In this document: in pieces, positions 11,182-33,852 of the stretch
How the letters are laid out: each line of letters opens with the position of its first letter
How positions within the stretch are numbered: position 1 is the stretch's first letter
Assembly: GCF_007004765.1 (NCBI RefSeq)
Contig: NZ_VIKR01000003.1
Coordinates: 1 to 64,000, forward strand
DNA length: 64,000 bases
From: Aliikangiella marina
GTDB taxonomy: Bacteria > Pseudomonadota > Gammaproteobacteria > Enterobacterales > Kangiellaceae
Reading direction: 5' to 3'
Translations under genes and position numbers: made by a program
The notes under the pieces: model-generated
What the model was told of the DNA's origin: nothing
The model's database searches: none
What the model saw: the letters and a program-made list of their open reading frames with translations, nothing else

Positions 11182-12381
11182 TTAAAGACCAAGAATTAAA
11201 CGCTCAGGTTCTTCTAACAACTCTTTGATTTTGACCAAGAAGCCGACCGCTTCTTTACCATCGATCAAACGGTGGTCATAGGATAACGCTAAGTACATCA
11301 TTGGTAGGATGACGACTTCGCCATCAACAGCCATTGGACGATCTTGGATTTTGTGCATACCTAAAATCGCAGTTTGTGGCGGGTTGACAATCGGCGTAGA
11401 CATCAATGAACCAAAAACGCCGCCGTTTGAAACAGTGAATGTGCCGCCAGTCATGTCATCAATTGATAATTTACCGTCGCGAGCTTTTACACCGTACTCG
11501 CGGATGCCACCTTCGATTTGCGCTAAGCTCATGTCATCAACGTTACGCAGTACCGGAACGACTAATCCGCGAGGTGATGAAACAGCAACACCAACATCTT
11601 GGTAACTGTGATAAACAATATCATTACCATCGATTGACGCGTTAACCGCTGGGAACGCTTTGAGTGCTTCAACCGCTGCGCGGACGAAGAAAGACATAAA
11701 TCCTAACCGTACATCATGTTTCTTTTCGAAATCGTCTTTATATTTAGAACGCAGTTGCATAACCGGTTTCATGTTTACTTCATTGAACGTCGTTAACATC
11801 GCCATATTTTGCTGAGCTTCAACCAAGCGATTAGCAATTTTTGCGCGCAATCGAGTCATCGGCTCGCGACGTTCGACTCTTTCACCCTGAGCCGCCGCAG
11901 GAGCCGGAGCTGCACTTGGTGTTGCTTTTTGGTTAGAGCGGTTTTCAATAAAAGCTTGGACGTCTTCTTTGAGGATACGGCCGTTTTTACCGGTCCCTTG
12001 AATTAAGTCAGCATTGATACCATATTCGTTGACCATTTTACGGACAGCTGGGCTAAGTACAGAATTACTGGAATCGTCGCTGGCGGCTTCTGTGGCTGGA
12101 ACTTCTGCTGCTGGTGCTTCGGCAGGTGCAGCTGCTGCACTAGCGCCGGCTTCAAAGTTTCCAATAACTTCTTCGCTCAATACCGTTTCACCTTCGTCTT
12201 TAACAATAGTGCTAAGCACGCCGTCTTCAGGCGCGACGACTTCAATAACGACTTTGTCGGTTTCAATATCAACTATCAGTTCATCACGTGAGAAAGCTTC
12301 CCCGGGTTTTTTGTGCCAGGTAGCGATGGTGCCGTCGGCGACGGATTCTGGAAACGTTGGAGCCTTTATTTCGGTAGCCAT
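11182..12381 (-). CDS. sucB: 2-oxoglutarate dehydrogenase E2, dihydrolipoyl succinyltransferase
   Basis: E2 core of the 2-oxoglutarate dehydrogenase complex, transferring the succinyl group from lipoamide to CoA in the TCA cycle. ATG 12381 (399 residues) is preferred over ATG 12402 because AAAGGA precedes it and MATEIKAP matches the family N-terminus. Domains: biotinyl/lipoyl domain 1-75 with the lipoylated lysine K43 in IETDKVVIE, an Ala/Pro/Glu-rich linker, a peripheral-subunit-binding domain ([16 protein letters not shown]), a second linker, and the catalytic domain with SYDHRLIDG near residue 370 supplying the active-site His and Asp. It lies 63 bp downstream of sucA. Neither lpd nor sucCD follows; the operon ends at the terminator at 11081-11106. 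Confidence 0.97.
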
Positions 12382-19741: not shown

Positions 19742-19769
19742 TGATCTAGTTATGTCTAATTTGCGTAAT
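19742..19769 (+). promoter_or_regulatory. Candidate ChrR-sigma (ECF) promoter for the TudS/YbgA-phr unit
   Basis: TGATCT (19742-19747), 16 bp, CGTAAT (19764-19769). The -10 end lies 43 bp before the start of the downstream gene. It matches the layout of the other two sites near the sigma/ChrR locus (25772-25799 and 25749-25723) and resembles promoters described for RpoE-ChrR sigma factors (TGATC near -35, CGTA near -10). Recognition by this sigma factor is inferred. Confidence 0.6.
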
Positions 19770-19812
19770 AGATTTGTATAACTTACTAACAGTTTCAGAA
19801 CGGGGTTTTCTA

Positions 19813-20754
19813 ATGATTAAAGTCGGGATCAGTCAATGTCTTCTGGGTGCGAATGTTCGCTATGATGGTGGGCACAAACAAAATCGATTTTGTCGTCACG
19901 AGTTATCAAAAATCTTTAAGTTCGTGCCGCTCTGTCCAGAGGTGGGGATCGGTTTACCGACACCACGAAAAACGATTCGGTTAGTTGGTGATATTGCCTC
20001 GCCAAGAGCGGTATTTAGCGATGATTCTAGTCAAGACTTTACCGCGCCATTGCAAGATTTCGCCGACCAAAATGTCGCGAAATTGAAGCAAATGAGTGGC
20101 TACGTGTTTTGCAAGGCCTCGCCGAGTTGTGGCGTTGAGCGGGTCAAAGTGTATAGTGAGAAAGGCGGCGCTGAGCGCAAAGGTATGGGCGTGTTTGCTG
20201 CTCGCGTGAAAGAACTGTGCCCATTATTACCGATAGAAGAAGATGGTCGCTTAAACGACCCGTTATTGCGCGACAGTTTTATCAAGAGAGTTTATGTGTA
20301 CCATGAGTGGCAGAGTATGCTCGAAGGTGGGCTAACCAAGAAACGTTTGTACGAGTTTCATGCGCGTCACAAATTAACCTTATTGGCCCATAGCCAACCG
20401 ATTTATCGAGAGCTAGGTCCTTTGGTCGCCAGTATTAACCAACAAAATCTTGTGGAGGTTGCTGAGCAATATATCGAGAAATTAATGCAAGGTCTTAAGA
20501 AAACAGCCACCCGGTCTAACAACACAAATGTGTTAATGCATTTGCAAGGCTATCTGAAAGATAAATTAGAATCTGAAGATCGACGTGAACTGGCTAACTG
20601 CATCTTGGAGTATCGTAAAGGCATATTGCCGATCTTATCGCCTTTGACGTTATTGAAGCATCACTTCAATCACCATCCAAATGAATATATTGCAAAGCAA
20701 TCATACTTAAACCCTTATCCAAAAGAGTTAGCGATTCAAGTTGCCATGCATTAA
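19813..20754 (+). CDS. DUF523 (TudS-like) and DUF1722 (YbgA) fusion protein
   Basis: ATG 19813 (313 residues) is preferred since MIKVGISQCLLGANVRYDGG is the conserved family start; the frame is open further upstream from a TTG. Residues 1-150 are a DUF523 domain with three conserved cysteines (SQCLLG, LCPEVG, SPSCGVE), which in TudS enzymes bind a [4Fe-4S] cluster used for thiouracil desulfuration. Residues about 170-310 are a DUF1722/YbgA domain (LLAHSQPIYRELG, NPYPKELAI). In Escherichia coli ybgA is next to phrB, and here the photolyase gene follows 87 bp later, so the pairing is conserved. A candidate ECF promoter lies just upstream. The role may be repair or salvage of sulfur-containing or photodamaged bases; that is inference. 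Confidence 0.85.
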   Translation: MIKVGISQCLLGANVRYDGGHKQNRFCRHELSKIFKFVPLCPEVGIGLPTPRKTIRLVGDIASPRAVFSDDSSQDFTAPLQDFADQNVAKLKQMSGYVFCKASPSCGVERVKVYSEKGGAERKGMGVFAARVKELCPLLPIEEDGRLNDPLLRDSFIKRVYVYHEWQSMLEGGLTKKRLYEFHARHKLTLLAHSQPIYRELGPLVASINQQNLVEVAEQYIEKLMQGLKKTATRSNNTNVLMHLQGYLKDKLESEDRRELANCILEYRKGILPILSPLTLLKHHFNHHPNEYIAKQSYLNPYPKELAIQVAMH

Positions 20755-20841
20755 TGAGTGGTCAGTTTGATAACTGTGAAGCGGCTTTAAAAGCAACCGA
20801 TGTTTGGGTCGGCGATAGTAAATTTAACAGTTGAAAAAAAG

Positions 20842-22233
20842 ATGAATCTAATTTGGTTTCGCAATGATTTGCGCGTCAATGACAATCCCGCGCTATCCTC
20901 AGCACTCGAAAATAAACAGCGACAAGTCGTCGCTGTTTATTGTTTGTGTGCCAATCAATGGGCGATGCATGACATGGGCAATAATCAGCAATGGTTAGTG
21001 CTTCAGGCGTTAAGTCAACTTAAAGTTGCGCTTGCTAAGCTCAACATCCCGTTGGTGATCCTTGAATCGGAAACTTTTCAGCAGGTACCCAATCGTCTCA
21101 GTGAACTGTGTGGAAAGCTCGGGGTAAGCGATTTATTTTTTAATATGGAGTACCCAATCTATGAGCGCCGCCGTGATAAAGCTGTCGTAGAGAAGCTGGC
21201 CGATACGGTTAAGTGCCACCGAAAAGTGGGCCAGTCGTTAGTCGCGCCTTGGGAAATTCTTAACGGTGACGGTGGCGGCTATAAGGTTTTCAGCGCTTAT
21301 GCGAGAAAGGTGCAAGTTTATCTTGATCATAATCCGCCGATTAATCCAGCACCCCCTACTGCCCGGCCCGCAGAAAATAGGCAAATTCCGAAAATATCAG
21401 GTGTGGTGAGCCAGTTGCCAAGTATCAAGCCAAGTGCAGAAGTCACCCCGGATATCAGTGAAGATTTCGTCAATAAGCAACTGCAAACTTTTTGCCGGCA
21501 ACAAATCGGTGAATACAAAGCGAATCGAGACTTCCCCGCTATTCAAGGAACATCAGAGCTATCCTCTGCTCTGGCTGTCGGTACATTATCCGTTGCGCGA
21601 TGCTATCAAACAGCATTGCAGGCGGGCTATCCAGCCTCCTCAACTTGGGTCAACGAGTTAGTTTGGCGAGACTTCTATCGGTCGGTGATGTGGAACTACC
21701 CTCGAGTCAGTCAGCGGCAGGCATTTAATTCGGTGGATAAGTTTGTTCCTTGGAACAACGATCGACAAGTCCTCGAAGATTGGCAGTCAGCCAAAACGGG
21801 TATTCCGATTATTGACGCAGCGATGCGGCAGCTAAACACCACGGGTTGGATGCACAATCGATTACGCATGATTGTGGCAAGTTATTTAACGAAAAATTTA
21901 TTTGTTGACTGGCGGCACGGAGAAGCTTATTTCGCTCAACAATTATTCGATTTTGATTTTGCGAGCAATAATGGCGGATGGCAGTGGAGTGCTTCAGTGG
22001 GAACCGATGCGGCGCCCTACTTCAGAGTGTTTAATCCTGCAGCTCAACAAAAAAAGTTTGATCCTCAGGCTGAGTTTATTAAAGCTTGGCTACCAGAATT
22101 AAAAGCATATTCGTCTAACGCGATTCATAAATTCGAAACAGCACCGCTTGAGGGCTACCCTCGGCCGCAAGTTGATCTGAAGGCGACTCGTAAGCTCGCG
22201 ATCGAGTCTTTTAAGCGTGCTAACGCTGCTTAA
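20842..22233 (+). CDS. phr: Class I deoxyribodipyrimidine photolyase
   Basis: Flavoprotein that uses blue light to split cyclobutane pyrimidine dimers. ATG 20842 (463 residues) gives the family start MNLIWFRNDLRVNDNPALSS; an ATG at 20800 adds 14 residues not found in the family. The N-terminal alpha/beta antenna domain is followed by the FAD-binding helical domain with WVNELVWRDFYRSVMW, MRQLNTTGWMHNRLRMIVAS and the C-terminal ASNNGGWQWSASVGTDAAPY block. Second gene of the unit with the TudS/YbgA fusion; membership of the ChrR stress locus fits a light-protection role. Confidence 0.96.
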   Translation: MNLIWFRNDLRVNDNPALSSALENKQRQVVAVYCLCANQWAMHDMGNNQQWLVLQALSQLKVALAKLNIPLVILESETFQQVPNRLSELCGKLGVSDLFFNMEYPIYERRRDKAVVEKLADTVKCHRKVGQSLVAPWEILNGDGGGYKVFSAYARKVQVYLDHNPPINPAPPTARPAENRQIPKISGVVSQLPSIKPSAEVTPDISEDFVNKQLQTFCRQQIGEYKANRDFPAIQGTSELSSALAVGTLSVARCYQTALQAGYPASSTWVNELVWRDFYRSVMWNYPRVSQRQAFNSVDKFVPWNNDRQVLEDWQSAKTGIPIIDAAMRQLNTTGWMHNRLRMIVASYLTKNLFVDWRHGEAYFAQQLFDFDFASNNGGWQWSASVGTDAAPYFRVFNPAAQQKKFDPQAEFIKAWLPELKAYSSNAIHKFETAPLEGYPRPQVDLKATRKLAIESFKRANAA

Positions 22234-22266
22234 GTATTTAGACTGTTTGACACTAGAAAACTGACT

Positions 22267-22716
22267 TTAAGAGTTAGCAAGTGCTAACTCATTGTCTTCA
22301 CTCTGGGTTTTAACGATCCGAATACTATCGAGAATACCGAAACGAAATTCTAGCTCGAGCGTACAGTCTTGCTTGAAACATAAGGAAAAGGATGGGCCGT
22401 AGTCACTCAGTTGAGGATCGACATCAAAGTGTTTGCCAATAAATTGAAGAACCTCTTTTTGCTTTCTACCGATCAAGCGTCGTCCAAAAAGTTCTGCTTC
22501 GGGATTATAGATAGTGATTTTGCTGAGTAGAGATTCATTGGATGCATCGAAGCCTAGTTCCATCATTAATTCATTATATTGCAGGCGACAAGCATTTTTG
22601 TCGTTCAGATAAACTTTGTCTGGAACGCCCAAGTGCTTGGTCGCATCACTCTCCGATGCGCCAAAACGAATTAAGTTAGTGCCAGTGAATGGCTCGATGA
22701 TCAATGCTATCCCCAA
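22267..22716 (-). CDS. Conserved hypothetical protein, 149 residues
   Basis: Unrecognised soluble acidic protein with no signal peptide. The only possible start in range is TTG 22716 (a stop codon lies four codons earlier), with only a weak AAGA-type ribosome site. The sequence alternates short hydrophobic strands and charged turns (LIRFGASESDATKHLG, LEFRFGILDSIRI), suggesting an alpha/beta protein. It is convergent with phr; a perfect stem GAGTTAGC/GCTAACTC overlaps its last codons. It lies on the same strand as, and downstream of, the sigma/chrR operon but beyond that operon's terminator, so it is probably a separate unit. Confidence 0.6.
   Translation of the reverse strand: MGIALIIEPFTGTNLIRFGASESDATKHLGVPDKVYLNDKNACRLQYNELMMELGFDASNESLLSKITIYNPEAELFGRRLIGRKQKEVLQFIGKHFDVDPQLSDYGPSFSLCFKQDCTLELEFRFGILDSIRIVKTQSEDNELALANS
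22271..22290. other. Stem-loop at the phr / hypothetical gene convergence
   Basis: GAGTTAGC (22271-22278) pairs with GCTAACTC (22283-22290) around AAGT. It covers the final sense codons of the minus-strand gene. There is no adjacent long T-run, so termination is possible but unproven. Confidence 0.35.
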
Positions 22717-22870
22717 TGGATTTATCTTACACGTGTTGATTATTTTTTAGCCCCGGAAGCTTACTGTCGTGGTTAAATTTTGACAAGTAAAAAATCTCAT
22801 TATGTTATTTGCTTCACAATTTGAGAAATTAAAGTGGGTGTTTTAATTAGTTGGTATGAGTATTAACCAA

Positions 22871-22897
22871 AAAAGCCGCATGGGAAATGCGGCTTTT
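22871..22897. terminator. Rho-independent terminator after the sigma-chrR operon
   Basis: AAAAGCCGCAT (22871-22881) pairs with ATGCGGCTTTT (22887-22897), an 11-bp stem with a 5-base loop. It lies 43 bp past the chrR stop codon. Poly-A/T on both sides would let it work in both directions. Confidence 0.85.
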
Positions 22898-22939
22898 AAT
22901 TTGAAATTGAGGTCAAATTAGGCCAACAAAATCAACCGG

Positions 22940-23599
22940 TTAATGTGAGAACCAATTGAGAATTGGTCCTAAAGTACCGGTAAATTTGAGCGGGGCGTTA
23001 GTGATTGCAAGGCAAATACAGCCGTTCTCACCGGCGACTGGTGAATGCTCGTCATTTTCGTCTTGCACAATAAATGAACCTGCTTTGTAGTGACCTTGGC
23101 TATCACTAAAATCACCTTGCAACACGACTGTGTATTCATCTCCTTCGTGAGTGTGTTGGGGTATTTTAGCGTTCGCTGCAAACTTGAGTAATTCAACTTC
23201 AAAGTCAGCATCGTTCATCGCAATCGTGCTCTTCCATATTTTTGGAGAAACTCTTCTCCATTCCATGTCATCAAAGTCCTGTTTGACGAGTTTGTCAACA
23301 ATGTCGAAATCAGATTCGGCAACCGCTAAGTCTTCGTATTCGCTGATAGTCGCGACCGGCTGGATTTGGTCAATAGCACCTAATAACTTATCGAAGTCTT
23401 TGAGCACGATTTGATCTTCATTGTCTGCGACGGTTGGCATAGACTCGAGAGTTTCACCGCCGACGATTTCGAGCTCTGCAACGCGTTCTTGACAAATTTT
23501 GCAGTGTTTATGGTGCAAGCCGACGGCTAAAGCCAACGATGGCTCAAGCTTACCGCTTGTATATTTCAATAATAATTCAATGTCTGGATGATACTTCAT
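22940..23599 (-). CDS. chrR: ChrR-type anti-sigma factor with zinc-binding and cupin domains
   Basis: Holds the partner ECF sigma factor inactive until singlet oxygen or related stress. At 219 residues it has the two-domain layout of Rhodobacter ChrR. The N-terminal anti-sigma domain shows zinc ligands H4, H29, C33 and C36, with the same spacing as H6, H31, C35 and C38 in Rhodobacter sphaeroides. The C-terminal cupin keeps H149, H151, E155 and H185 (PQHTHEGDEY and DEHSP), again a constant offset of 8 from the Rhodobacter ligands. The gene overlaps the sigma gene by 4 bp (ATGA), so translation is coupled. All metal ligands are present, so it should be functional. Confidence 0.93.
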   Translation of the reverse strand: MKYHPDIELLLKYTSGKLEPSLALAVGLHHKHCKICQERVAELEIVGGETLESMPTVADNEDQIVLKDFDKLLGAIDQIQPVATISEYEDLAVAESDFDIVDKLVKQDFDDMEWRRVSPKIWKSTIAMNDADFEVELLKFAANAKIPQHTHEGDEYTVVLQGDFSDSQGHYKAGSFIVQDENDEHSPVAGENGCICLAITNAPLKFTGTLGPILNWFSH

Positions 23600-24165
23600 T
23601 TGTCTTCGCCTCCCAGATGGGATCGTAATACTTTTAGCGCACTGCGAATTCGAGATTTCACCACGCCGGGTGTCATGTCTAATTCAGCTGCTGCAATTTG
23701 GTGGCTTTTGTCCTCAAAATAGACCTTTTGCAGCACGTTACGTTGCTCTTCGTTTAAGTAGGTAAAAACTTGTTGAACTTGTTTCTTTTTACGTGATAAA
23801 TCAACGCCTAGATCAAGTTCTCCATCTTCGCCTACATCATGAGTTTCGTCTTGACTTACCTCATCTAAGCGTCTTCGACGTAGATAGTCAATTCGTAAAT
23901 TCCTGACAATAGTAAAAATCCACGTTGAAACATTCGCTTTTTCACTATTGTAACTGGCTGCTTTTTGCCAGATTTTAATAAATACTTCATGAGTCAGTTC
24001 TTCGGCTTGCCTCGCCATGCCCTGATTCAAATAGAAAGATTTTACTTTTGGTGCAAAATGCAAGTACAAAGATTGGAAGGCCGCTCGGTCTTGAGAGCTT
24101 GCCACAGCTAGCATGTGCTGTTTCCAACATTGTGCTTGGGGATCGGCAGTTTGCAAGTTTGTCAT
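23596..24165 (-). CDS. rpoE: ECF RNA polymerase sigma factor, RpoE/ChrR group
   Basis: Alternative sigma factor of 189 residues from ATG 24165; an in-frame upstream ATG at 24240 and the first open start at 24252 would add 25-29 residues that family members lack. Region 2 (about 30-95) contains HEVFIKIWQKAASYN and VSTWIFTIVRNLRIDYLRRR, the -10-recognition helix; region 4 (about 135-185) has QQVFTYLNEEQRNVLQKVYF and the helix-turn-helix SHQIAAAELDMTPGVVKSRI. It is directly followed by chrR. No good TGATC-type site lies just upstream, so it probably relies on read-through from the DUF4397 gene, whose promoter does carry one, giving autoregulation. That wiring is inferred. Confidence 0.92.
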   Translation of the reverse strand: MTNLQTADPQAQCWKQHMLAVASSQDRAAFQSLYLHFAPKVKSFYLNQGMARQAEELTHEVFIKIWQKAASYNSEKANVSTWIFTIVRNLRIDYLRRRRLDEVSQDETHDVGEDGELDLGVDLSRKKKQVQQVFTYLNEEQRNVLQKVYFEDKSHQIAAAELDMTPGVVKSRIRSALKVLRSHLGGEDK

Positions 24166-24260
24166 ATTGACTGACTGTCTTTTGGGACTGGATACCGGCC
24201 AATATACAAGATTTGTTGCTTGTTGTCTTTCCTGCTGCATAGTTAATCTCAATAGATTGT

Positions 24261-24287
24261 GGGGCTCTATAGCTCTAATAGAGCCCC
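24261..24287 (-). other. GC-rich stem-loop between the DUF4397 and sigma genes
   Basis: GGGGCTCTA (24261-24269) pairs with TAGAGCCCC (24279-24287), a 9-bp stem with a 9-base loop. It lies 20 bp after the DUF4397 stop. No T-run follows on either strand, so it is more likely a partial terminator or an RNA-processing/stability hairpin that lowers sigma/chrR expression relative to DUF4397. Confidence 0.55.
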
Positions 24288-24307
24288 ATTACTGTCTAAG
24301 TTGTGTC

Positions 24308-25681
24308 TTAGTTAACTGGCGATTCAAAGTCGTCTAGTAAGATGACTCCAAGCGGTGCGCCACCACCTTCACCGTCACGGGCAATAATGGTGTATACGCC
24401 GCCAGCGCTTAAAGAGATCGTTGCTGGGCCAATTGCTGCATCTTTAGTACCGGTCGGAGTGACGATAACGTCGTAGCTTCCTTCGGCCACCGACAAAAAG
24501 TTGGTGTCAGCTTGAAACGGAACGTCAGACAGCGTTGGTGCGACATCAGTGATATCTGTTTGCGGAGCAACAAGATAGATATCAACGTTTTGTGCAGTCG
24601 GGCTGCCATGAATCACACGAAGCTTCGCTTCAGTACCAACTCGGCGATTATCTGCAGTTAGCACAAGTGGAGTGATTTCAGCAAGGACGTCTGTTGCGAT
24701 CACGTTGTAAGCGACGCCTGCATCAAGTGTCAGGTCTGCGTCAATAACAACTGGCGTTGTTTCGCCATTAGGTACCACTTTAATGTTGTAAGTGTCTGCT
24801 GGAAGATCAACATATCCCGCCCAACCAGCGAATGGGATATTGCTGATTAGCGGCTCTGCAAAGCCATCGTTAGCAATGATGTCTACTGCCGGCGCGTCAG
24901 GAGATGCATGGACAACGCGAACTGAAGTCGGTGTTGAAGCGTCGAGTAAAGAAACTGAACCCGATGCGCTGAGCAATAGAAGGTTGACCGGTTGGTCGCC
25001 AGGTCCAACGTTAGTGACTGCTGCAATCGTGAAGTCCCCACCATCAGGAAGAGTGATAGTGCCTGAATCGTAAACGACTGTTGCGGCATCGCCAGCTGGC
25101 GTAATGCGAATTTGGTAGTCGCCAGCAGGTACTTCGGTCGCGTCTAAACTGTCTTTAAAGTCGGCGGTTACTAACGGAGAGGACGTGGCTAAGTCTGCAC
25201 CAGGCGCGGTGGCATAGACATCGACAATCGGCGCATTTGGTGCGGCATGGACAACTTGGATGCGCGCATTACCAGCCGTTACAGCTGTGTCTGCCCGGGT
25301 GAGAATTAATGGTTCGATGTTCTCTAGCGTATTGACCGCGAGAACAGTGTAAATAATGTCAGCCCCGAAAGGTGCTTCAACGGTCGGGAAGGCTTCGACG
25401 GTTGACCCATCAGGTAGTATCGCGAGAACGTCGGCAGTATGTGTGCCGGCTGCTAAATCAGTGACTGGAGTTGCATCTAAATAGTCAACGTTTTCAGCGA
25501 AAGTGATATCGTCGACTGCTAAGTTAACGCGAGGTGCATCAGGCGAAGCATGAACGACTTGAATCTTTGCTAGTAGAGGTGGTGCTGGAGGTGGTGGTGG
25601 ATCAGGAAGATCATTGTCGCTATCACTACAAGCGACGAGCCCACCCAAGAATAAACTAAATAATATGCTGAGTTTTTTCAT
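24308..25681 (-). CDS. Lipoprotein with four DUF4397 repeats
   Basis: A 457-residue predicted outer-membrane or periplasmic lipoprotein: lipobox GLVAC (Cys18), a Pro-rich stalk (PPPPPAPP), then four DUF4397 repeats of about 105 residues whose starts read VVHASPDAPRV, VVHAAPNAPIV, VVHASPDAPAV and VIHGSPTAQNV. The domain is a beta-sandwich of unknown biochemical role seen in cell-envelope proteins. A ChrR-type promoter (25749-25723) lies 42 bp upstream of the start, and the sigma and chrR genes follow on the same strand, making this the probable first gene of the sigma operon. An envelope protein heading a singlet-oxygen regulator operon is unusual. Confidence 0.85.
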   Translation of the reverse strand: MKKLSILFSLFLGGLVACSDSDNDLPDPPPPPAPPLLAKIQVVHASPDAPRVNLAVDDITFAENVDYLDATPVTDLAAGTHTADVLAILPDGSTVEAFPTVEAPFGADIIYTVLAVNTLENIEPLILTRADTAVTAGNARIQVVHAAPNAPIVDVYATAPGADLATSSPLVTADFKDSLDATEVPAGDYQIRITPAGDAATVVYDSGTITLPDGGDFTIAAVTNVGPGDQPVNLLLLSASGSVSLLDASTPTSVRVVHASPDAPAVDIIANDGFAEPLISNIPFAGWAGYVDLPADTYNIKVVPNGETTPVVIDADLTLDAGVAYNVIATDVLAEITPLVLTADNRRVGTEAKLRVIHGSPTAQNVDIYLVAPQTDITDVAPTLSDVPFQADTNFLSVAEGSYDVIVTPTGTKDAAIGPATISLSAGGVYTIIARDGEGGGAPLGVILLDDFESPVN

Positions 25682-25722
25682 CGTATTGTTTCCGTTCTTT
25701 TGAGAGTGAAGTTGTGATCAGG

Positions 25723-25749
25723 ATTACGAGCCGATAGAAATTTGGATCA
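25723..25749 (-). promoter_or_regulatory. Candidate ChrR-sigma promoter for the DUF4397-sigma-chrR unit
   Basis: On the minus strand TGATCC (25749-25744), 15 bp, CGTAAT (25728-25723). The -10 end is 42 bp from the DUF4397 start codon. The spacer is one base shorter than in the two plus-strand sites. Together with 25772-25799 it makes a divergent promoter pair in the 150-bp gap. Confidence 0.6.
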
Positions 25750-25771
25750 CCTCTTCGGTAATATTTACTTT

Positions 25772-25799
25772 TGATCTGAAAACAGGGGAACTGCGTAAG
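25772..25799 (+). promoter_or_regulatory. Candidate ChrR-sigma promoter for the lipid-modification operon
   Basis: TGATCT (25772-25777), 16 bp, CGTAAG (25794-25799), ending 33 bp before the TTG start of the DUF3833 gene. It has the same boxes and spacing as the site at 19742-19769. Eight genes follow with short gaps or overlaps, all plausibly driven from here. Confidence 0.65.
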
Positions 25800-25831: not shown

Positions 25832-26377
25832 TTGAAATTGTTGTTTGTAGCGGGATTTTTTGTTGCAGTGCTCGGCGGATGTTCGGCATCGCTGAATAGT
25901 TATAAAAACAAATCTCCGCAATTTAAAATGAACGAGTTTTTTTCGGGCAAACTTTGTGCTTGGGGAGTGGTTAGAGATAGAAGCGGCGAAGTGAGTCGAA
26001 AGTTTGTAGCAGATATTGCTGCAACTGCGGAAAAAGACGCCGTAGTTTTAGACGAAGATTTTGTTTTTGACGACGGTGAGAAACAAAAAAGAATCTGGAA
26101 ATTTGTTCGTAAAAATGAACAGTGGATCGGAACTGCAGGCGATGTTGTTGGTGAGGCCGTTGGTCGAGTTAAGGGCGATACGCTCCACTTAACCTATGAA
26201 CTTGCGATTCAAGTTGAAGGAACAGAATACGTCATTGCGATGGATGACTGGTTGCATTTAATCGACAGCAAAACCCTCATGGGCTCTACTGACATGAGTA
26301 AATGGGGTTTTAATGTTGGCCGAATTGATATTAGTATTCAACAAACGCAAGTCGAGAGTTGTCTCGCGAATTTGTAG
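25832..26377 (+). CDS. DUF3833 family lipoprotein
   Basis: A 181-residue lipoprotein, first gene of the ChrR-regulon lipid operon. The start is TTG 25832, supported by TGGAG 8 bp upstream and a direct signal peptide with lipobox VLGGCSAS (Cys17). The mature part matches DUF3833 (FFSGKLCAWGVVRDRSGEV, DGEKQKRIWKF, YELAIQ, IDSKTLMGSTDMSKWGF), a lipocalin-like beta-barrel family of unknown function that commonly accompanies the desaturase, SDR, DUF1365 and Cfa genes found here. A lipid-binding role in the envelope is plausible but unproven. Confidence 0.85.
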   Translation: MKLLFVAGFFVAVLGGCSASLNSYKNKSPQFKMNEFFSGKLCAWGVVRDRSGEVSRKFVADIAATAEKDAVVLDEDFVFDDGEKQKRIWKFVRKNEQWIGTAGDVVGEAVGRVKGDTLHLTYELAIQVEGTEYVIAMDDWLHLIDSKTLMGSTDMSKWGFNVGRIDISIQQTQVESCLANL

Positions 26378-26425: not shown

Positions 26426-27355
26426 ATGAAACGGTTATCTAAAAATTTTGCTTCAATCATGGCGTGGTTTGACACCACGGCAATTGGCGATCAAAAAGGC
26501 GACGCGATTGATGCAAAACGTATTATCCCATTTATCCTGATGCACCTTGCTGTGCTGGGAGTGTTTTGGGTTGGTTTTAGTTGGTTTGCTTTTTGGGTAG
26601 CCGTTGGTCTGTATGTGCTGAGAATGTTTGCGATTACTGGCTTTTATCATCGATATTTTTCGCACAAAAATTTCAAAACGAGTCGACCCCTGCAATTTAT
26701 TTTTGCATTTATAGGCGCGTCTTCGGCGCAACGTGGTCCCTTATGGTGGGCATCTCATCACAGGCATCATCACGCACGAGCAGATCAACCAGACGATCCT
26801 CACTCGCCGCGTCAGAGAGGCTTTTTATGGAGTCATACGCTCTGGTTTTTATCGAATAAAAATTTCTCGACGCGTTCAGAAAAAATTAAAGATTTTGCCC
26901 AGTTTAAAGAGCTTGTTTGGTTAGACCGGTTTGATATGCTTGCGCCGTTTATATTAGCGTTATTTTTATTTGTTTTAGGTGCAATTCTTGAGATTTATGC
27001 ACCATCTTTGGAGACCACTGGCGGACAACTCTTAGTTTGGGGTTTTTTTGTTTCGACTGTTGTTCTTTATCATGCAACCTACACCATAAACTCTTTGGCA
27101 CATCGGTTTGGCAGCCGGCGATTTGAAACTAAAGACGATAGTCGTAACAACCCTGTTCTTGCGCTGATTACACTCGGCGAAGGGTGGCACAACAACCATC
27201 ATTATTACTGCGGGACGGTTCGTCAAGGGTTTAAGTGGTACGAGTTTGATATCACTTTCTACATTTTAAAAGTAATGAGTTGGTTTGGCTTGGTCTGGGA
27301 CCTCAAACCAATCCCAGAGAAAATCTATCGACAAATGGAGCAAGCTAAAACATGA
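26426..27355 (+). CDS. Acyl-CoA/acyl-lipid delta-9-type fatty acid desaturase
   Basis: Membrane di-iron desaturase of 309 residues that introduces a cis double bond into a fatty acyl chain using oxygen. The three His boxes are present: HRYFSH near residue 76, HRHHHA near 114 and HNNHHYY near 254. Hydrophobic segments flank them as in stearoyl-CoA-type desaturases. In this operon it could supply the unsaturated chain that the downstream cyclopropane fatty acid synthase-like enzyme modifies. Stop and next start overlap by 4 bp with the NTF2-like gene, indicating translational coupling. Regulated, by inference, by the ECF promoter at 25772. Confidence 0.92.
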   Translation: MKRLSKNFASIMAWFDTTAIGDQKGDAIDAKRIIPFILMHLAVLGVFWVGFSWFAFWVAVGLYVLRMFAITGFYHRYFSHKNFKTSRPLQFIFAFIGASSAQRGPLWWASHHRHHHARADQPDDPHSPRQRGFLWSHTLWFLSNKNFSTRSEKIKDFAQFKELVWLDRFDMLAPFILALFLFVLGAILEIYAPSLETTGGQLLVWGFFVSTVVLYHATYTINSLAHRFGSRRFETKDDSRNNPVLALITLGEGWHNNHHYYCGTVRQGFKWYEFDITFYILKVMSWFGLVWDLKPIPEKIYRQMEQAKT

Positions 27356-27768
27356 TTTTGGATAAGTTCAAGAAGTTGTATCATGATTTAGATAGTTCGA
27401 ATATCGACATTATCGAATCGGTTTATGCTGCAGATATCGAATTTACCGATCCTTTCCATCGAGTTGATGGACTGCAAGCGTTGAAAGAATATTTTCAAGG
27501 TATGTACAGTAATGTCAAAGCAATAAGCTTTGAATTCGGCGAATCGATCGCTGAAGGAAATACTTATTTTATCCATTGGGTAATGAAATTGTCACATCCA
27601 AAACTAAATGGCGGCAAAGAAATAACGGTTCCTGGTGCAACTTACTTAAAAGTGAATGAATCACAACAAGTGATTTTTCACCGAGATTACTTTGATGCTG
27701 GAGTAATGCTCTACGAACAACTCCCCGTTCTTGGTGGTTTAGTTAAGTTAATTAAAAGGCGTTTATAG
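27352..27768 (+). CDS. SnoaL/NTF2-like protein
   Basis: A 138-residue soluble protein of the nuclear transport factor 2-like fold. Visible signature: an N-terminal helix pair (KFKKLYHDLDSSNIDIIESV) followed by YAADIEFTDPFHRVDG and beta strands ending FHRDYFDAG. Members may be enzymes or ligand-binding pockets; a homologue is often found in this DUF3833/SDR/Cfa cluster. It overlaps the desaturase gene by 4 bp and is followed 1 bp later by the SDR gene. The substrate is unknown. Confidence 0.85.
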   Translation: MILDKFKKLYHDLDSSNIDIIESVYAADIEFTDPFHRVDGLQALKEYFQGMYSNVKAISFEFGESIAEGNTYFIHWVMKLSHPKLNGGKEITVPGATYLKVNESQQVIFHRDYFDAGVMLYEQLPVLGGLVKLIKRRL

Positions 27769-27769
27769 C

Positions 27770-28531
27770 ATGGGCTACCAATTTAATAACAAGCGCGTTT
27801 GGTTAACCGGTGCTTCAAGCGGAATCGGTTTGGCTTTAGCAAAGCGTCTTCTAGAACAGGGCGCGTCAGTTGCGGTTACCTCACGAAATGAATCTCAACT
27901 GAAAGAGATTTATCAAGATTATGATAATGCTCTGGTGGTAGCCGGTGATTTAGCGCAAGAGAATACGAACCAATCGATCGTGAATCAAATCATTGAACGA
28001 TTCGACGGACTTGACTGTGTGATTTTAAATGCCGGGTCGGCAGAATATATCGATGTGAGAAATTTTGAAACAGCGCCGTTTGAACGAATGATGCAAATTA
28101 ATTTTATTTCTATGGTCCGCGGTATTGAAGCTGCGCTGCCGCAATTGCGTCGTTCTACCGATCCCTATCTAGTTGGCATGAGTTCAAGTGTCGCGTGGCA
28201 AGGCTTACCTCAAGGGCAAGCGTATTCCGCAAGCAAAGCCGCGATTCGGAACTTGTTTCAAGGACTAAAAATTGAACTTGAACCGGAGGACATTGCGGTC
28301 AGCTGGATATGTCCAGGGTTTGTTGAAACGCCGCTGACTGATAAGAACACCTTCGACATGCCAATGCGGATCTCGGTGGATAAAGCGACCGAAGTTCTCG
28401 TTAAACACTTACAGAAACAGACGACTGAAATTCATTATCCCAAACGTTTTACATTGATGCTGAAACTTTTTTCTATGTTACCAGCGGGATTAAGCGCAAA
28501 ACTTTTAAAAGGAACGGTACCAGAAAGATGA
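27770..28531 (+). CDS. Short-chain dehydrogenase/reductase
   Basis: NAD(P)-dependent oxidoreductase of 253 residues. The Rossmann motif TGASSGIG is near residue 15, NAG appears in VILNAGSAE, and the catalytic Ser and YSASK (Tyr near residue 153) are intact. The C-terminal third is more hydrophobic (FTLMLKLFSMLPAGLSAKLL), which may bring it to the membrane. It is translationally coupled to the flavoprotein gene by a 4-bp overlap. A role in oxidising or reducing a modified acyl chain fits the operon, but the substrate cannot be read from sequence. Confidence 0.93.
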   Translation: MGYQFNNKRVWLTGASSGIGLALAKRLLEQGASVAVTSRNESQLKEIYQDYDNALVVAGDLAQENTNQSIVNQIIERFDGLDCVILNAGSAEYIDVRNFETAPFERMMQINFISMVRGIEAALPQLRRSTDPYLVGMSSSVAWQGLPQGQAYSASKAAIRNLFQGLKIELEPEDIAVSWICPGFVETPLTDKNTFDMPMRISVDKATEVLVKHLQKQTTEIHYPKRFTLMLKLFSMLPAGLSAKLLKGTVPER

Positions 28532-29811
28532 AGATAGCGATAATTGGAACGGGTGTTGCTGGTAATGTAGCGGCTCACTACTTAAACAAAGAACACGACA
28601 TTACTGTATTTGAAGAAAATGATTATGTCGGCGGGCACACCCATACGCATAAAATAGACTTCGATGGTGAATCACATAATATCGATACTGGGTTTATTGT
28701 ATTCAATCATAAAACCTATCCTAACTTCATCAAACTGCTCGGTGAATTAGGCGTTGAGTATCAGAAAAGTAACATGAGCTTTTCGGTACAGTGCGAAAAA
28801 ACGGGCTTAGAATACAACGGGACAACTTTGAATTCGCTGTTTGCGCAAAGAAGAAACTTATTTCGACCGAGTTTCTATCGAATGATTAAAGATATCTTAA
28901 GGTTTAATCGCGAAAGTTTAGAAATTTTAGAGCAGCCCCATGAAAAATTATCACTGGGCGAATACTTAGCCGCTAATAATTATTCAGAGCAGTTTATCCA
29001 TCATTATATCGTGCCCATGGGCGCCGCAATTTGGTCAACGGATCACGATTCGATGTTTGCTTTTCCGGCAAGATTTTTTGTTCAGTTTTTCCATAATCAT
29101 GGAATGCTCAGCGTCGATGAAAGGCCACAATGGTACGTTATCAAAAATGGCTCTAATGAATACGTCAAGCCATTGATAGCCGCCCACAAAGATAAAATTA
29201 AATTGTCCAGTCCGGTCGAGAGTATCGTACGGTCATCTAATCAAGTTCTAGTTAAGGCCAAGGGGCAAGGGACAGAAGCATTTGACTATGTCTTTATTGC
29301 TTCGCACAGTGATCAGGCCCTTGCAATGCTGGAAAATCCAACAGCGACAGAAAGAGAAGTACTTTCGGCAATCCCCTATTCGGACAACGAAGCCGTGTTG
29401 CACACTGATGAAAGACTTTTACCTGATAAGAAGCTTGCCTGGGCAGCTTGGAATTATCATTTGCTGAAAGAAAAGAAAGAACAAGTAGCGCTAACTTATA
29501 ATATGAATATTCTTCAGTCGCTCAAAAGTAAAAATACTTTTTGCGTGACATTGAACAATACGGACGCAATTGATCCAAGTAAGATTATTAAAAAGATGGA
29601 CTACATGCATCCATTCTTCACTTTGGATGGCGTGCAAGCGCAGCAAAGACACAGTGAAATCAATGGAACCCATCGTACTTTTTATTGTGGTGCCTATTGG
29701 CGATATGGCTTTCATGAAGATGGTGTTGTTTCAGCGTTAACCGCTCTGCAAGATTTCAACAAGGAAATCAATAATGAACAGCAAAATATACTTTGGTCGC
29801 GTTCAGCATAG
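28528..29811 (+). CDS. FAD-dependent amine-oxidase-like protein (COG2907 type)
   Basis: A 427-residue flavoprotein with the dinucleotide-binding motif [18 protein letters not shown] at the N-terminus, followed by [12 protein letters not shown] and the [14 protein letters not shown] block typical of COG2907. The C-terminal FAD contact region reads [17 protein letters not shown]. Homologues are neighbours of DUF1365 and cfa genes in many proteobacteria, and the cluster has been tied to fatty-acid modification under singlet-oxygen stress in alphaproteobacteria. The likely role is oxidation or desaturation of a methylated or cyclopropanated acyl chain; this is inferred from context. Overlaps the SDR gene by 4 bp and the DUF1365 gene by 38 bp. 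Confidence 0.92.
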
Positions 29812-30562
29812 GCGGTTTGAGCCCAGATCCCATGAGTTCAGTTATGGGATGTTTATGTTGTATCTCGACCTAGATGAACTGCCAACGCTTTTTGATAAAT
29901 TTTGGCTGTGGTCAAAAGACAAGCGCAATTTCGCGAGCTTTCGAACGAGTGATTATTTTACCGATGACACTGGCTCGATCAAAAATGCGGTAATACAAGA
30001 AGTGGAATCACAATGTGGTGTCAAGCCAAAGGGTTCTATTAGAATGCTCACGCATTTGCGTTACTTCGGATATTGCTTTAATCCCGTTTCTTTTTACTAT
30101 TGTTTTGATGAAGAAGGTGAGCACGTCGACTTTATTGTGGCCGAAATCAATAACACGCCCTGGGATCAACGATACCGATACGTCCTTGATAATCGTGCAA
30201 CAGAAACAAAACGCACTCAAGCCGTGACAGCGGAGTTTGATAAGCTATTCCATGTTTCACCTTTCCTGCCCATGGATATGCAGTACGCTTGGCGATTTAA
30301 TCAGCCTGGCGAGAAGTTAACGGTGTTTATGAAAAACATCAAAGGGGGTAAAAAGTTCTTTGATGCGACGCTATTGCTCGAGGCTAAAGCAATTAATCGA
30401 AAAAATATGGCTAAGGCACTCCTTAAATTTCCTTTGATGACCTGGCAAGTAGCCGCCGGCATTTATTGGCAAGCCCTCAAATTATGGCTCAAAAGAGTAC
30501 CTTTTTATGACAATCCCCACTCTCAGAGCGATCAAAAGCTAACAAATGAATCTAGTCGATAG
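29774..30562 (+). CDS. DUF1365 family protein
   Basis: A 262-residue protein of the DUF1365 family: [20 protein letters not shown] at the start, then [21 protein letters not shown]-like core ([17 protein letters not shown]) and [15 protein letters not shown]. The biochemical activity is unknown, but the gene is a near-constant partner of COG2907 flavoproteins and Cfa-type methyltransferases, so it probably acts on the same lipid. The start lies inside the end of the flavoprotein gene (38-bp overlap). A gap of 83 bp separates it from the Cfa-like gene. Confidence 0.92.
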
Positions 30563-30645: not shown

Positions 30646-31941
30646 ATGAGCTCAAATTTGTCAGTCAAAACTTTAGCTGACCAGCTAGAAGCAAAACGGC
30701 CCAAAAGAAGCGCGAGCATAATGACTCGTACCTTAAAAAATGCCATGTTAAGCCAGCTCAAGCATCTAGGATATGGCTGTTTGACGATATATGACGGTGA
30801 GCAGGTCTTTCAATTTGAAGGAAAATCACGTCATGATTTAAAAACCGACATTAGAGTTAATGACGAACAGTTTTACTGGTTTGTTGGGTTTGGTGGTTCA
30901 GTAGGAGCCGGTGAAGCCTACATGAATGGCTACTGGAGTACTTCAGATCTGACTAAGGTCATTCAGCTATTTGCCTTAAATCAATCCGTAATGGATTCGA
31001 TGGAGGGGGGCCTTGCCCGATTAACGAGTCCGCTTAAGAAAGGTTTCCACTGGCTCAACAAGAACACCCGTAAAGGAAGCCGAAGTAATATTGTCGCTCA
31101 CTACGACTTAGGGAATGAGTTTTTTAAACTGTTCCTTGATCCTACGATGATGTATTCAGCAGGCATATTTCACTCTGAGTCAGATTCGATGGAACAGGCG
31201 TCGCTCAATAAACTCAAACGAATTTGTGACCGCTTGAGATTAAAGCCGACCGATCATTTGTTAGAAATCGGCACCGGGTGGGGAAGTTTAGCGATTTTCG
31301 CCGCGAAAAATTACGGCTGCAAAGTGACTACCACGACGATATCGGATGAACAACATGCCCATACTCAGGCGCGAATTAAGGCTGAAGGTTTGGAGTCTCA
31401 GATTACCTTGTTAAAAGAAGATTATCGAAACCTGAAAGGCCAGTATGACAAATTAATCTCAATTGAGATGATTGAGGCGGTAGGACATCACTACTTTGAC
31501 ACCTTTTTCGCGCAATGCAGTAAATTGCTGAAACCAGAGGGAGAAATGCTCCTTCAAGCGATCACTATTCAAGACCAAAGGTTTGATAGTGCTAAGAAAG
31601 ATATTGATTTTATCAAACGCTATATATTCCCTGGCAGCTGCATTCCTTCAGTTGATTCAATCAGCGACAGTGTGCGTAAGTCGACCGACATGCGGATGTT
31701 AAATCTAGAGGATATTGGCGTCCATTACGCGATTACATTGCAAAAGTGGCGAGAAGCTTTCTTTGAAAAAATCGAAGATGTTCGTGCTCAAGGGTTTAGT
31801 GAAGCGTTCAATCGCATGTGGGAATTCTATCTTTGCTATTGTGAAGGTGGCTTTCGAGAACGTGTTATCAGCGACGTACAAATGCACTTAGTCAAACCGA
31901 TGGCAAGAGTCCCGATGAAACTTGCTTCGTTGGAGAATTAG
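30646..31941 (+). CDS. cfa: Cyclopropane-fatty-acyl-phospholipid synthase family methyltransferase
   Basis: SAM-dependent enzyme of 431 residues that adds a methylene or methyl group across the double bond of an unsaturated phospholipid acyl chain. Family motifs: the N-terminal lipid-binding part (FVGFGGSVGAGEAYMNGYW), NIVAHYDLGNEFFKLFLDP, MMYSAGIF, the SAM-binding LEIGTGWGSLAIFAAK near residue 207, EMIEAVGH and the C-terminal ERVISDVQM. In this stress-controlled operon it may produce cyclopropane or methylated precursors of furan-type fatty acids; the exact product is undetermined. The DUF2878 gene starts at the base after its stop codon. Confidence 0.94.
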   Translation: MSSNLSVKTLADQLEAKRPKRSASIMTRTLKNAMLSQLKHLGYGCLTIYDGEQVFQFEGKSRHDLKTDIRVNDEQFYWFVGFGGSVGAGEAYMNGYWSTSDLTKVIQLFALNQSVMDSMEGGLARLTSPLKKGFHWLNKNTRKGSRSNIVAHYDLGNEFFKLFLDPTMMYSAGIFHSESDSMEQASLNKLKRICDRLRLKPTDHLLEIGTGWGSLAIFAAKNYGCKVTTTTISDEQHAHTQARIKAEGLESQITLLKEDYRNLKGQYDKLISIEMIEAVGHHYFDTFFAQCSKLLKPEGEMLLQAITIQDQRFDSAKKDIDFIKRYIFPGSCIPSVDSISDSVRKSTDMRMLNLEDIGVHYAITLQKWREAFFEKIEDVRAQGFSEAFNRMWEFYLCYCEGGFRERVISDVQMHLVKPMARVPMKLASLEN

Positions 31942-32514
31942 ATGCCTCTTTGGATTGGATTTGTACTATTCGAAATTGGCTGGTTAACGGTCATATTGGG
32001 AAGTACTAGTTGGGTTTATTGGGCGATAGTTCCCTTGTTGGTTGGGTTCTTAATTTGGGAATGGCGGTTTTCACAACAACCTGGACAGCGCTCATTAGGT
32101 ATCGAATACTACGTAGCGCGCCTCGCGTTTGCACTTCTCGGTTTTGCTGCGGATTCATTGCTTCAGTCGCTTCAGTTAATTGATTTTGACACCAGTACTG
32201 CTGGCGCAGCCCCCGGCTTTGCCCCACTTTGGCTATTGTTTATGTGGTTGTGGTTTAGTGTGACTTTATCGGCTTGTTATCAATGGTTGGTCGGCAAAGC
32301 ATACATAGCAGGTGGCTTCGCCGCGATCGCTGGTCCCTTAGCCTATTGGGGAGCGAGTAAGTTGGCTAATGTCGCTATTATTGAATTCTGGCCTTTCATG
32401 ATAGCTAGCGGAATCTTTTGGGGATTGCTGTTTGGTATTGTGTTCCATATCGAGCCACTTAGCCGGCTGTTAATCATCCCAGAAGATAAATCTCCTGTGA
32501 CCAATCTCGCGTAA
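31942..32514 (+). CDS. DUF2878 family membrane protein
   Basis: Integral membrane protein of 190 residues with about five or six hydrophobic segments (LWIGFVLFEIGWLTVILG, WLLFMWLWFSVTLSACYQWL, FMIASGIFWGLLFGIVFHI). It matches DUF2878, a family of unknown function regularly encoded just after cfa in this cluster. It begins directly after the cfa stop codon and is probably the last gene of the operon that starts at 25832. An accessory role for lipid handling in the inner membrane is inferred from context only. Confidence 0.88.
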   Translation: MPLWIGFVLFEIGWLTVILGSTSWVYWAIVPLLVGFLIWEWRFSQQPGQRSLGIEYYVARLAFALLGFAADSLLQSLQLIDFDTSTAGAAPGFAPLWLLFMWLWFSVTLSACYQWLVGKAYIAGGFAAIAGPLAYWGASKLANVAIIEFWPFMIASGIFWGLLFGIVFHIEPLSRLLIIPEDKSPVTNLA

Positions 32515-32628
32515 ATTCGTCGATGGCTCAGTGATGAGCCATTCTTGATTCTTGTTTTTTCCCTTGGCCTTGAATATCTCTGGGTATACACTAGCGGGCT
32601 ATTCGTTTATTGGTCTAGCGTATAAAGC

Positions 32629-33852
32629 ATGAACCCGCCCCCGCCACAATCGGTCATCTATTCCCAAGCGCTTGCTTTGCTCAAAACGCCGCAAGCCGAG
32701 CAGGGCTATCAAATGCTCAAGCAGTTGGCTGACCAAGGATTTGAGCCAGCCCAGTTACGGCTGGGTGAAATGTTTGCCCGTGGCCAGTTTGTGCCGCGCC
32801 GAGCGGACTTAGCCAAGCAGTATTTGAACCCGCTACTGAATCAACAAAGCTTACCGGCAACGCTGCTACTTTCCTGGTTAGCAATGGAAGAATTAGATAA
32901 GAAGGAGTGTCAGCGCATTCTGAATCATTACAAACCGCCCTATCATCCGAAATTGCTTCATTTGATGGGGTTGTTGATGATTTCAAGAGCGCCAGAAGTC
33001 GCATTGGACTATTTTGCGCAAGGTGTCGCACAACTCGATTTAGACTCGAGTTTTGCTTACCTTGCCTGTGGACAAGAGTTTGGTCTTCAACTCGATAACA
33101 AGCGCGCTCAAATCGCTTGGCAAAAAGTTCAAGCCAGTCATTATCCGCTCCTTCAAGAATTGAAAGTCGACAGTTGGCAAACTATCGATAAAACCGAGCG
33201 TGAACTGCAACCCATTAACCTAGAATTAGCGAGTCAAATTGGTCCTTCGCAGGTATTAAATCACGCACCAATTGTCGTATTGACGCCAAATTGTGTAACT
33301 TTAGCTGAGAGAGCTCACCTTATAAGGCTAGCATCGCCCTCAATGCAACGGGCCGAAGTGATTCGAACCGTTGGGCACAATCAGGGACAAGCTTCCAATG
33401 TACGAACAAACTCTTCGATGTTTTTGTCTGTTAAGGAAAAAGATGTTGTTGCAGCAGATATTGAACAACGAGTTGCGCAAGCCTGTCATCAACCTCATGA
33501 AAATGGCGAGCCATTCAACTGTTTGAATTACCAGGTCGGTCAAGAGTACCAGTATCACTTTGACTATTTTGCTGAAGAACTGGCCTCTTCCCAGTCATAT
33601 CTTAAATTTGGCGGTCAAAGAGTGGTGACGGGCATATTGTTTTTAAATCATGTTGCTCAAGGCGGAGAAACCGAGCTGCCAAAACTCAAAATAAAGCAAT
33701 CTCCTGTACCCGGCGCGGTGTTATCTTTTCATAATGTTGACGAATTAGGGCAGCCGGATGAGCGAAGTCTGCATGCTGGACTGCCGGTGATTGCGGGGGA
33801 GAAGTGGGTTGCCACTCGTTGGTTTAGGGCCAATAAGCGCGAAAATCATTAA
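32629..33852 (+). CDS. 2-oxoglutarate/Fe(II) oxygenase, prolyl 4-hydroxylase-like, with Sel1/TPR N-terminus
   Basis: A 407-residue cytosolic protein. Residues 1-180 form Sel1/TPR-like helices (GYQMLKQLADQGFEPAQLRL, MFARGQF, ADLAKQYL). Residues about 200-400 form a prolyl 4-hydroxylase alpha-subunit-type catalytic domain: iron ligands in YQYHFDYF (His and Asp near 310-312) and SLHAG (near 381), and the 2-oxoglutarate-binding Lys in EKWVATRWFR. The acceptor protein is unknown; bacterial relatives hydroxylate elongation factor Tu or other proline-containing targets. It follows the DUF2878 gene by 114 bp and may be its own unit; a TATACA element lies in the gap, but no TGATC-type site does. Confidence 0.88.
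   Translation: MNPPPPQSVIYSQALALLKTPQAEQGYQMLKQLADQGFEPAQLRLGEMFARGQFVPRRADLAKQYLNPLLNQQSLPATLLLSWLAMEELDKKECQRILNHYKPPYHPKLLHLMGLLMISRAPEVALDYFAQGVAQLDLDSSFAYLACGQEFGLQLDNKRAQIAWQKVQASHYPLLQELKVDSWQTIDKTERELQPINLELASQIGPSQVLNHAPIVVLTPNCVTLAERAHLIRLASPSMQRAEVIRTVGHNQGQASNVRTNSSMFLSVKEKDVVAADIEQRVAQACHQPHENGEPFNCLNYQVGQEYQYHFDYFAEELASSQSYLKFGGQRVVTGILFLNHVAQGGETELPKLKIKQSPVPGAVLSFHNVDELGQPDERSLHAGLPVIAGEKWVATRWFRANKRENH

Follow-up and report, generated by a model that had tools for sequence, protein, structure and literature searches.

A putative RpoE-ChrR (ECF11) photo-oxidative stress regulon in Aliikangiella marina, with a DUF4397 lipoprotein as candidate effector

The circuit formed by an extracytoplasmic function (ECF) sigma factor and its anti-sigma factor ChrR has been described before in Shewanella, Vibrio and Rhodobacter. 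In Shewanella oneidensis, RpoE2-ChrR is described as controlling itself, the ybgA-phrB-cfa genes and a peroxidase-ferrochelatase unit, and start sites have been mapped downstream of the promoter boxes for rpoE2 and pgpD (PMC4336711). According to PMC5241685, ChrR and a MerR-like regulator (VCA0056) jointly account for the blue-light response of Vibrio cholerae, blue light induces cfa, and VC2303, the third gene of the ChrR operon, is annotated as hypothetical. The core regulon has been defined as rpoE-chrR plus the furan fatty-acid genes (PMC6852236, section 16), phrA has been reported as an RpoE target (PMC7074977), and a section heading of PMC6852236 states that the C-terminal domain of ChrR matters for the singlet-oxygen response. 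Here, a stretch of 64,000 nt from the Kangiellaceae member Aliikangiella marina (contig NZ_VIKR01000003.1, positions 1 to 64,000), hereafter the window, was analyzed. It contains a sigma-chrR gene pair and three promoter-like sites, and very probably carries the central part of a photo-oxidative stress regulon of the RpoE-ChrR (ECF11) kind, here in a gammaproteobacterium of the Kangiellaceae type, the target units and a DUF4397 lipoprotein effector included.

Promoter-like sites, the sigma-ChrR pair and target genes

A pattern search of the window with TGATCY-N15-17-CGTAAK returned three matches, while dinucleotide shuffles gave 0.14 matches on average and none of 100 shuffles reached three. 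The matches lie exactly at the positions reported in an earlier note on this DNA, the three-site observation of which is hereby confirmed. The first site (19742–19769, plus strand; TGATCT-N16-CGTAAT) ends 43 nt ahead of the ATG (19813) of ybgA-phr and has a matrix score of 17.3 out of a possible 19.9. The second (25723–25749, minus strand; TGATCC-N15-CGTAAT) reaches the maximum score of 19.9 and lies 41 nt ahead of the ATG (25681) of the DUF4397-sigma-chrR unit. The third (25772–25799, plus strand; TGATCT-N16-CGTAAG) is found 32 nt ahead of the TTG (25832) of a lipid operon. The scoring matrix was trained on five published S. oneidensis sites and seven sigma-gene promoters of other genomes, with the window sites excluded, and in a scan of both strands of the window one of the three sites took first rank, the other two being tied at rank 2. 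The proposed likeness to RpoE-ChrR promoter boxes agrees with the published RpoE2/SigmaE boxes, TGATC-N16-18-CGTAW (PMC5241685, PMC4336711), and the units said to follow the sites have fitting family matches, resembling the published S. oneidensis targets ybgA-phrB-cfa and rpoE2-chrR. An autoregulation-type sequence resembling TGATC-N16-18-CGTAW stands before the DUF4397 gene, the first one of the sigma unit.

The assignment of the regulator pair to the ECF11 type is borne out by matches to TIGR02451 and to the structures 2q1z and 2z2s. The sigma factor (23596–24240, minus strand) contains regions 2 and 4 and best matches RpoE (2q1z_A; E-value, 1.4e-32), with the second-best match among solved structures at 1.4e-12. 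ChrR (22940–23599, minus strand) consists of a zinc-binding N-terminal domain and a cupin, scores 164.2 bits with TIGR02451 (cutoff, 124.5), and aligns to the R. sphaeroides ChrR structures 2z2s/2q1z. Its HxxxCxxC and cupin HxHxxxE...H motifs, which we take to be the zinc and the cupin metal ligands, respectively, are intact. The two genes overlap by 4 nt, the ATG of chrR lying on the sigma stop codon (23596–23599). Translation of the sigma factor probably begins at ATG 24240 rather than at 24165, because the resulting 25-residue N-terminal extension (24165–24240) contains an N(L/I)VYWP motif common to this and the five closest genomes; the motif is missing from six other family members.

The photoreactivation unit is composed of a ybgA-type gene (19813–20754, plus strand), which encodes TudS (2-thiouracil desulfurase; PF04463, 3.4e-39) and DUF1722 (PF08349, 4.7e-42) domains, and the DNA photolyase gene phr (20842–22233, plus strand; PF03441, 1.2e-74; PF00875, 1.1e-40). 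The eight plus-strand genes of the lipid operon, presumably co-transcribed, code for a DUF3833 protein (25832–26377; PF12915, 6.5e-57), a fatty-acid desaturase (26426–27355; PF00487, 6.5e-22), a SnoaL-like protein (27352–27768; PF12680, 1.9e-15), a short-chain dehydrogenase (27770–28531; PF00106, 1.3e-44), a UfaD-like flavin/nicotinamide adenine dinucleotide (FAD/NAD) oxidase (28528–29811; PF01593, PF13450), which by analogy would be a furan fatty-acid acyl desaturase (PMC7380195), a UfaO-like DUF1365 protein (29774–30562; PF07103, 1.3e-84; same analogy), a UfaM/Cfa-like S-adenosylmethionine-dependent fatty-acyl methyltransferase (30646–31941; PF02353, 7.9e-84), and a DUF2878 protein (31942–32514; PF11086, 1e-23), probably the last of the operon. 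A terminator-like stem (32522–32543) is located downstream of the DUF2878 gene, and a 2-oxoglutarate-Fe(II) oxygenase gene (32629–33852, plus strand) lies beyond it. The UfaD, UfaO and UfaM assignments are matches at the family level, and the family models do not separate Cfa from UfaM. In R. sphaeroides, the three enzymes make methylated furan fatty acids (PMC7380195), and comparable products of the operon would be expected here by analogy. Since singlet-oxygen-dependent ChrR turnover in R. sphaeroides needs furan fatty acids (PMC6852236, sections 15–16), a positive loop leading from the lipid operon to ChrR turnover is plausible in this genome as well. The core sigmaE-ChrR targets (rpoE-chrR and putative furan fatty-acid genes) as well as phr are all present, each unit being preceded by a promoter-like site.

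The complete genome of A. marina (G000; 8 contigs, 5,336,331 bases) was also scanned. The three window sites are the sole intergenic exact matches in 5.34 Mb; the fourth exact match (C4:13253) sits within an open reading frame (ORF) of at least 997 aa. Three of the four matches fall within 6.1 kb, the probability of which is 1.4e-5 for four randomly placed sites. When the pattern was relaxed to TGATC-N16/17-CGTAA, four of the 17 real matches, compared to 0 of 18 matches of the reversed pattern, ended 25–60 nt ahead of a same-strand start (Fisher p = 0.045, longest ORFs); with the ybgA start at ATG 19813, which was picked by eye, the ratio becomes 5/17 versus 0/18 (p = 0.019).

Relaxed intergenic matches were found ahead of merR, which encodes a MerR-type regulator (C2:838228, L011; gap of 33 nt), the ferrochelatase gene hemH (C4:493636, L019; 34 nt), and tspO (C1:1051939, L008; 129 nt to the start of the longest ORF). 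The merR site is located 32–34 nt upstream in six of eight loci (the own one and all five full-length orthologues), with scores of 10.0–19.9. Four close tspO genes, including that of A. marina, have site scores of 17.3, 11.5, 19.5 and 19.9, and two distant TspO homologues have scores of 14.6 (gap of 104 nt) and 8.6; given the 129-nt gap in A. marina itself, the support for tspO comes mainly from its relatives. In two genera, g4 and g6, a −35 box of TGCTC or AGCTC is seen at merR and DUF4397 alike, and one of TGCTC at part of the sigma genes, a parallel drift that is expected if a single sigma factor reads the merR, DUF4397 and sigma promoters. Hence, of the interpretation offered in the earlier note, the regulator pair, the boxes and the target units stand, but the regulon is not solely local. 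Two other matches, one at a DUF4097-like locus (L020; gap of 126 nt) and one within the sigma gene, were kept out of the target list. MerR-type operators follow TRTACA-N12-TGTAYA. No such operator with at most one mismatch occurs in the window, and it was dropped as a target signal, since a single perfect match (upstream of ybgA in G038) was found and the other upstream regions had at least two mismatches.

The DUF4397 lipoprotein and its upstream sites

The sigma-chrR unit opens with a gene (24308–25681, minus strand) for a lipoprotein with an LVAC lipobox and four DUF4397 stretches (PF14344, 3e-67). In its structure model (predicted local distance difference test score, 87.3), these form four beta-sandwich domains, and the nearest PDB folds are the extracellular domains of PepT2/PepT1, AlgF and transthyretin-like proteins, which weakly suggests a role in binding or scaffolding rather than in catalysis. 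In the gap from the stop codon of DUF4397 to the start of sigma, a strong RNA hairpin with an 11-bp stem and no U run is predicted (24260–24288, minus strand). Hairpins of −17 to −24 kcal/mol were found at this junction in all seven family genomes having that gene order, beyond all shuffles (12 for each), and are kept in position, not in sequence. Among the family genomes without that order, none exceeding the shuffles was seen in G003, G005, G006, G007 and G011, and G013 was borderline. Possible roles of the hairpin are protection of the lipoprotein mRNA or a reduction of the read-through that reaches sigma. In genus g4 (G009, G016, G022; L059, L060, L062), sigma has its own TGATCC-N16-CGTAT, which overlaps the last codons of DUF4397; thus, coding and promoter constraints overlap there.

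DUF4397 is a new element in this regulon; the earlier note had listed it merely as a part of the sigma unit. Searches of open-access papers, a set that lacks most subscription papers, turned up none that connects DUF4397 with light or ChrR. For comparison, 295 genomes of the order were searched (cut-offs, E ≤ 1e-25 for DUF4397 and E ≤ 1e-13 for ChrR). DUF4397 was detected in 72 genomes and ChrR in 129, six of the latter being matched in the C-terminal half only. ChrR was present in 62 of the 72 genomes with DUF4397 and in 67 of the 223 without it. The 200 bp preceding DUF4397 were then scored at 78 loci, representing the 72 genomes and further relatives, with the exclusion of a contig-end fragment (L137) from the site counts. 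At a threshold score of at least 11, a site was found at 52 of 67 loci from ChrR-positive genomes and at none of 10 from ChrR-negative ones (0.9% in dinucleotide shuffles). The sites come from 10 out of 10 families, and 39 of the 52 lie 31–42 nt ahead of the start codon. A pattern scan of named genomes supplied a further set of 46 loci, and the ChrR status was established for 44 of them, all but L274 and L285; 13 of 27 ChrR-positive loci reached 11, compared to one of 17 ChrR-negative loci, the latter being from a metagenome-assembled genome. This set partly overlaps the order sample, and the start assignments at L276 and L286 are uncertain.

DUF4397 also occurs in genomes without detected ChrR. 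In genus g5 (ChrR-negative genomes of 2.3–2.9 Mb), it was found in nine of the 17 sampled genomes, and in all nine (L138, L139, L141, L142, L181–L185) it is divergent from ybgA-phr. The intergenic region lacks the sigma site and contains conserved TTCAC-N6-TTCAC repeats, which look like a response-regulator site. An exact copy of these repeats was found ahead of DUF4397 in none of 36 named loci; with one mismatch allowed, they were present in four of 17 ChrR-negative (L245, L277, L281, L282) and 0 of 19 ChrR-positive loci (p = 0.04), which is suggestive only. In six further genomes in which ChrR was not detected (L243, L245, L263, L265, L277, L282), no more than 10 kb separate DUF4397 from ufa or phr genes; most of these genomes are metagenome assemblies and perhaps incomplete. 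In the two of the six that were annotated, DUF4397 has genes for a histidine kinase and for a response regulator of the OmpR type as neighbors, and two-component control of DUF4397 in the ChrR-negative lineages may be guessed at. The effectors seem to remain together while the regulator changes. At locus L265, DUF4397 is followed by a gene with a Lon substrate-binding domain (11337–12080, plus strand); a Lon-domain gene of S. oneidensis, SO_1987, is an RpoE2 target (PMC4336711).

Proposed circuit and alternative explanations

In the proposed circuit, ChrR would keep the sigma factor inactive until light acting on porphyrins generates singlet oxygen, the most probable oxidant, upon which ChrR would let sigma go. 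The freed sigma factor would transcribe from TGATCY-N15/16-CGTAAK promoters. Transcription of DUF4397-sigma-chrR would provide positive feedback, and sigma-chrR would also reset the loop; ybgA-phr would allow DNA repair by photolyase (photoreactivation), and the eight-gene Ufa-type operon would remodel membrane lipids. TspO and ferrochelatase could reduce free photosensitizing porphyrin, and merR would be a target as well. The DUF4397 lipoprotein would coat or guard the envelope, acting as a conserved effector in its own right rather than being carried along with sigma.

The proposal that singlet oxygen induces the A. marina circuit is carried over from the described systems, and it is possible, though less likely, that the circuit instead responds to organic peroxides, general reactive oxygen or envelope stress, light being incidental. 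Reported inputs and phenotypes in other gammaproteobacteria include blue light (V. cholerae, PMC5241685) as well as hydrogen peroxide (H2O2) and paraquat: the rpoE2 mutants of S. oneidensis are sensitive to both compounds, and rpoE2-chrR is induced by H2O2 (PMC4336711). The systems of R. sphaeroides and Caulobacter are activated by organic hydroperoxides (PMC6852236). Against a different signal, the targets found here are biased towards light (photolyase, ferrochelatase, TspO and MerR). In addition, the metal ligands of the ChrR cupin, which are important for the response to singlet oxygen, are intact.

According to another explanation, which is unlikely, DUF4397 is a passenger placed ahead of sigma: the promoter would really be that of sigma, and the protein would have nothing to do with light stress. 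Indeed, DUF4397 heads the sigma unit, the promoter in front of it would drive sigma, and the sole further site within 420 nt ahead of 24165 is weak (score of 11.5, 228 nt off). The DUF4397 genes of Marinobacter and Glaciecola, moreover, lack the site. A passenger role is, however, hard to reconcile with the site being present at 41 of 50 DUF4397 genes that do not adjoin sigma in ChrR-positive genomes, or with the position of DUF4397 next to ybgA-phr or near ufa/phr in the genomes without detected ChrR described above.

Several observations weigh against the proposed regulon. Of the 27 ChrR-positive genomes with DUF4397 in the named set, 14 have no site scoring at least 11, including nine Marinobacter and three Glaciecola, and a wider rescan of the DUF4397 loci of these two genera still returned none at 11; the link between DUF4397 and the site is therefore lineage-dependent. 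The tests of association between site and ChrR treat genomes as independent, with shared ancestry uncorrected. On the opposite strand of the DNA upstream of DUF4397, six of 78 loci reach 11, which is above the shuffles, and at least two of the six (G000, G012) represent the promoter of the divergent lipid operon. The ybgA gene is preceded by a site of at least 11.5 at only five of 21 ChrR-positive loci (0 of 8 ChrR-negative), and hemH by a site of at least 11 at three of 18 (0 of 12 ChrR-negative; 30 loci out of 34 genomes with a match), making hemH weak as a conserved target. In the matrix scan of the window, joint rank 2 is shared by a site inside the sigma gene (23789–23815, minus strand), 189 nt ahead of chrR, which may be a chance match or an internal chrR promoter. 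Finally, the whole genome contains four exact matches, compared to six of the reversed pattern, and 17 relaxed ones, compared to 18. Because these counts are no higher than the control, genome-wide motif counting alone was rejected as evidence; of the frequency test suggested in the earlier note, the raw counts thus gave no support, and the placement before genes proved unusual. That chance or base composition produced the three sites, with the genes under housekeeping promoters, is nevertheless highly improbable: these counts are in its favor, but the placement of the sites, their ranking by an independent matrix, their conservation upstream of orthologues and the shuffles of the window all speak against it.

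Taken together, the data raise a wider proposal, to which we assign about even chances. The four-domain DUF4397 lipoproteins would belong to the core of the bacterial photo-oxidative stress response, as an extracytoplasmic effector that has been overlooked, and the module of DUF4397, furan-fatty-acid enzymes and YbgA-photolyase would be more constant than its regulator, which would be sigma-ChrR in many gammaproteobacteria and elsewhere perhaps an OmpR-type two-component system. In the shared operons, the hairpin would separate an abundant lipoprotein mRNA from a scarce sigma mRNA. If the DUF4397 link is true, a widespread domain for which no role was found gains a testable function, namely defense of the envelope against light and singlet oxygen, and the retention of the effectors in genomes without detected ChrR allows one to ask how regulators are swapped while a stress module persists.

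Comparison with described RpoE-ChrR systems

The window represents a well-supported example of the known circuit in another family, with the addition of the porphyrin-related targets tspO and hemH. Its boxes are the same as those of S. oneidensis RpoE2-ChrR (SO_1986-SO_1985; TGATCC-N16-CGTAAT/CGTATT), and the two systems share the overlapping sigma and chrR genes, an autoregulatory-type site and a ferrochelatase target (PMC4336711). In S. oneidensis, ybgA-phrB and cfa belong to one operon, whereas here they correspond to two units flanking sigma-chrR. DUF4397 heads the sigma unit of A. marina, while the RpoE2 sites presented in the relevant part of that report (PMC4336711) include none assigned to a DUF4397 product. 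The consensus of V. cholerae SigmaE-ChrR (VC2302-VC2301), TGATC-N16-18-CGTAW, also agrees with the sites described here; the merR gene of V. cholerae sits with phr, whereas that of A. marina is unlinked and carries a sigma-type site (PMC5241685). Similarity extends to R. sphaeroides sigmaE-ChrR (ECF11) and its Ufa pathway (PMC6852236, PMC7380195), with which A. marina shares homologous sigma and ChrR proteins (2q1z/2z2s), a photolyase target, and a regulon with genes from the families of UfaD, UfaO (DUF1365) and UfaM. A second sigma step (RpoHII) is a feature of the R. sphaeroides system; the A. marina locus differs from it by an eight-gene operon with DUF3833, desaturase and SnoaL genes, and by the addition of DUF4397.

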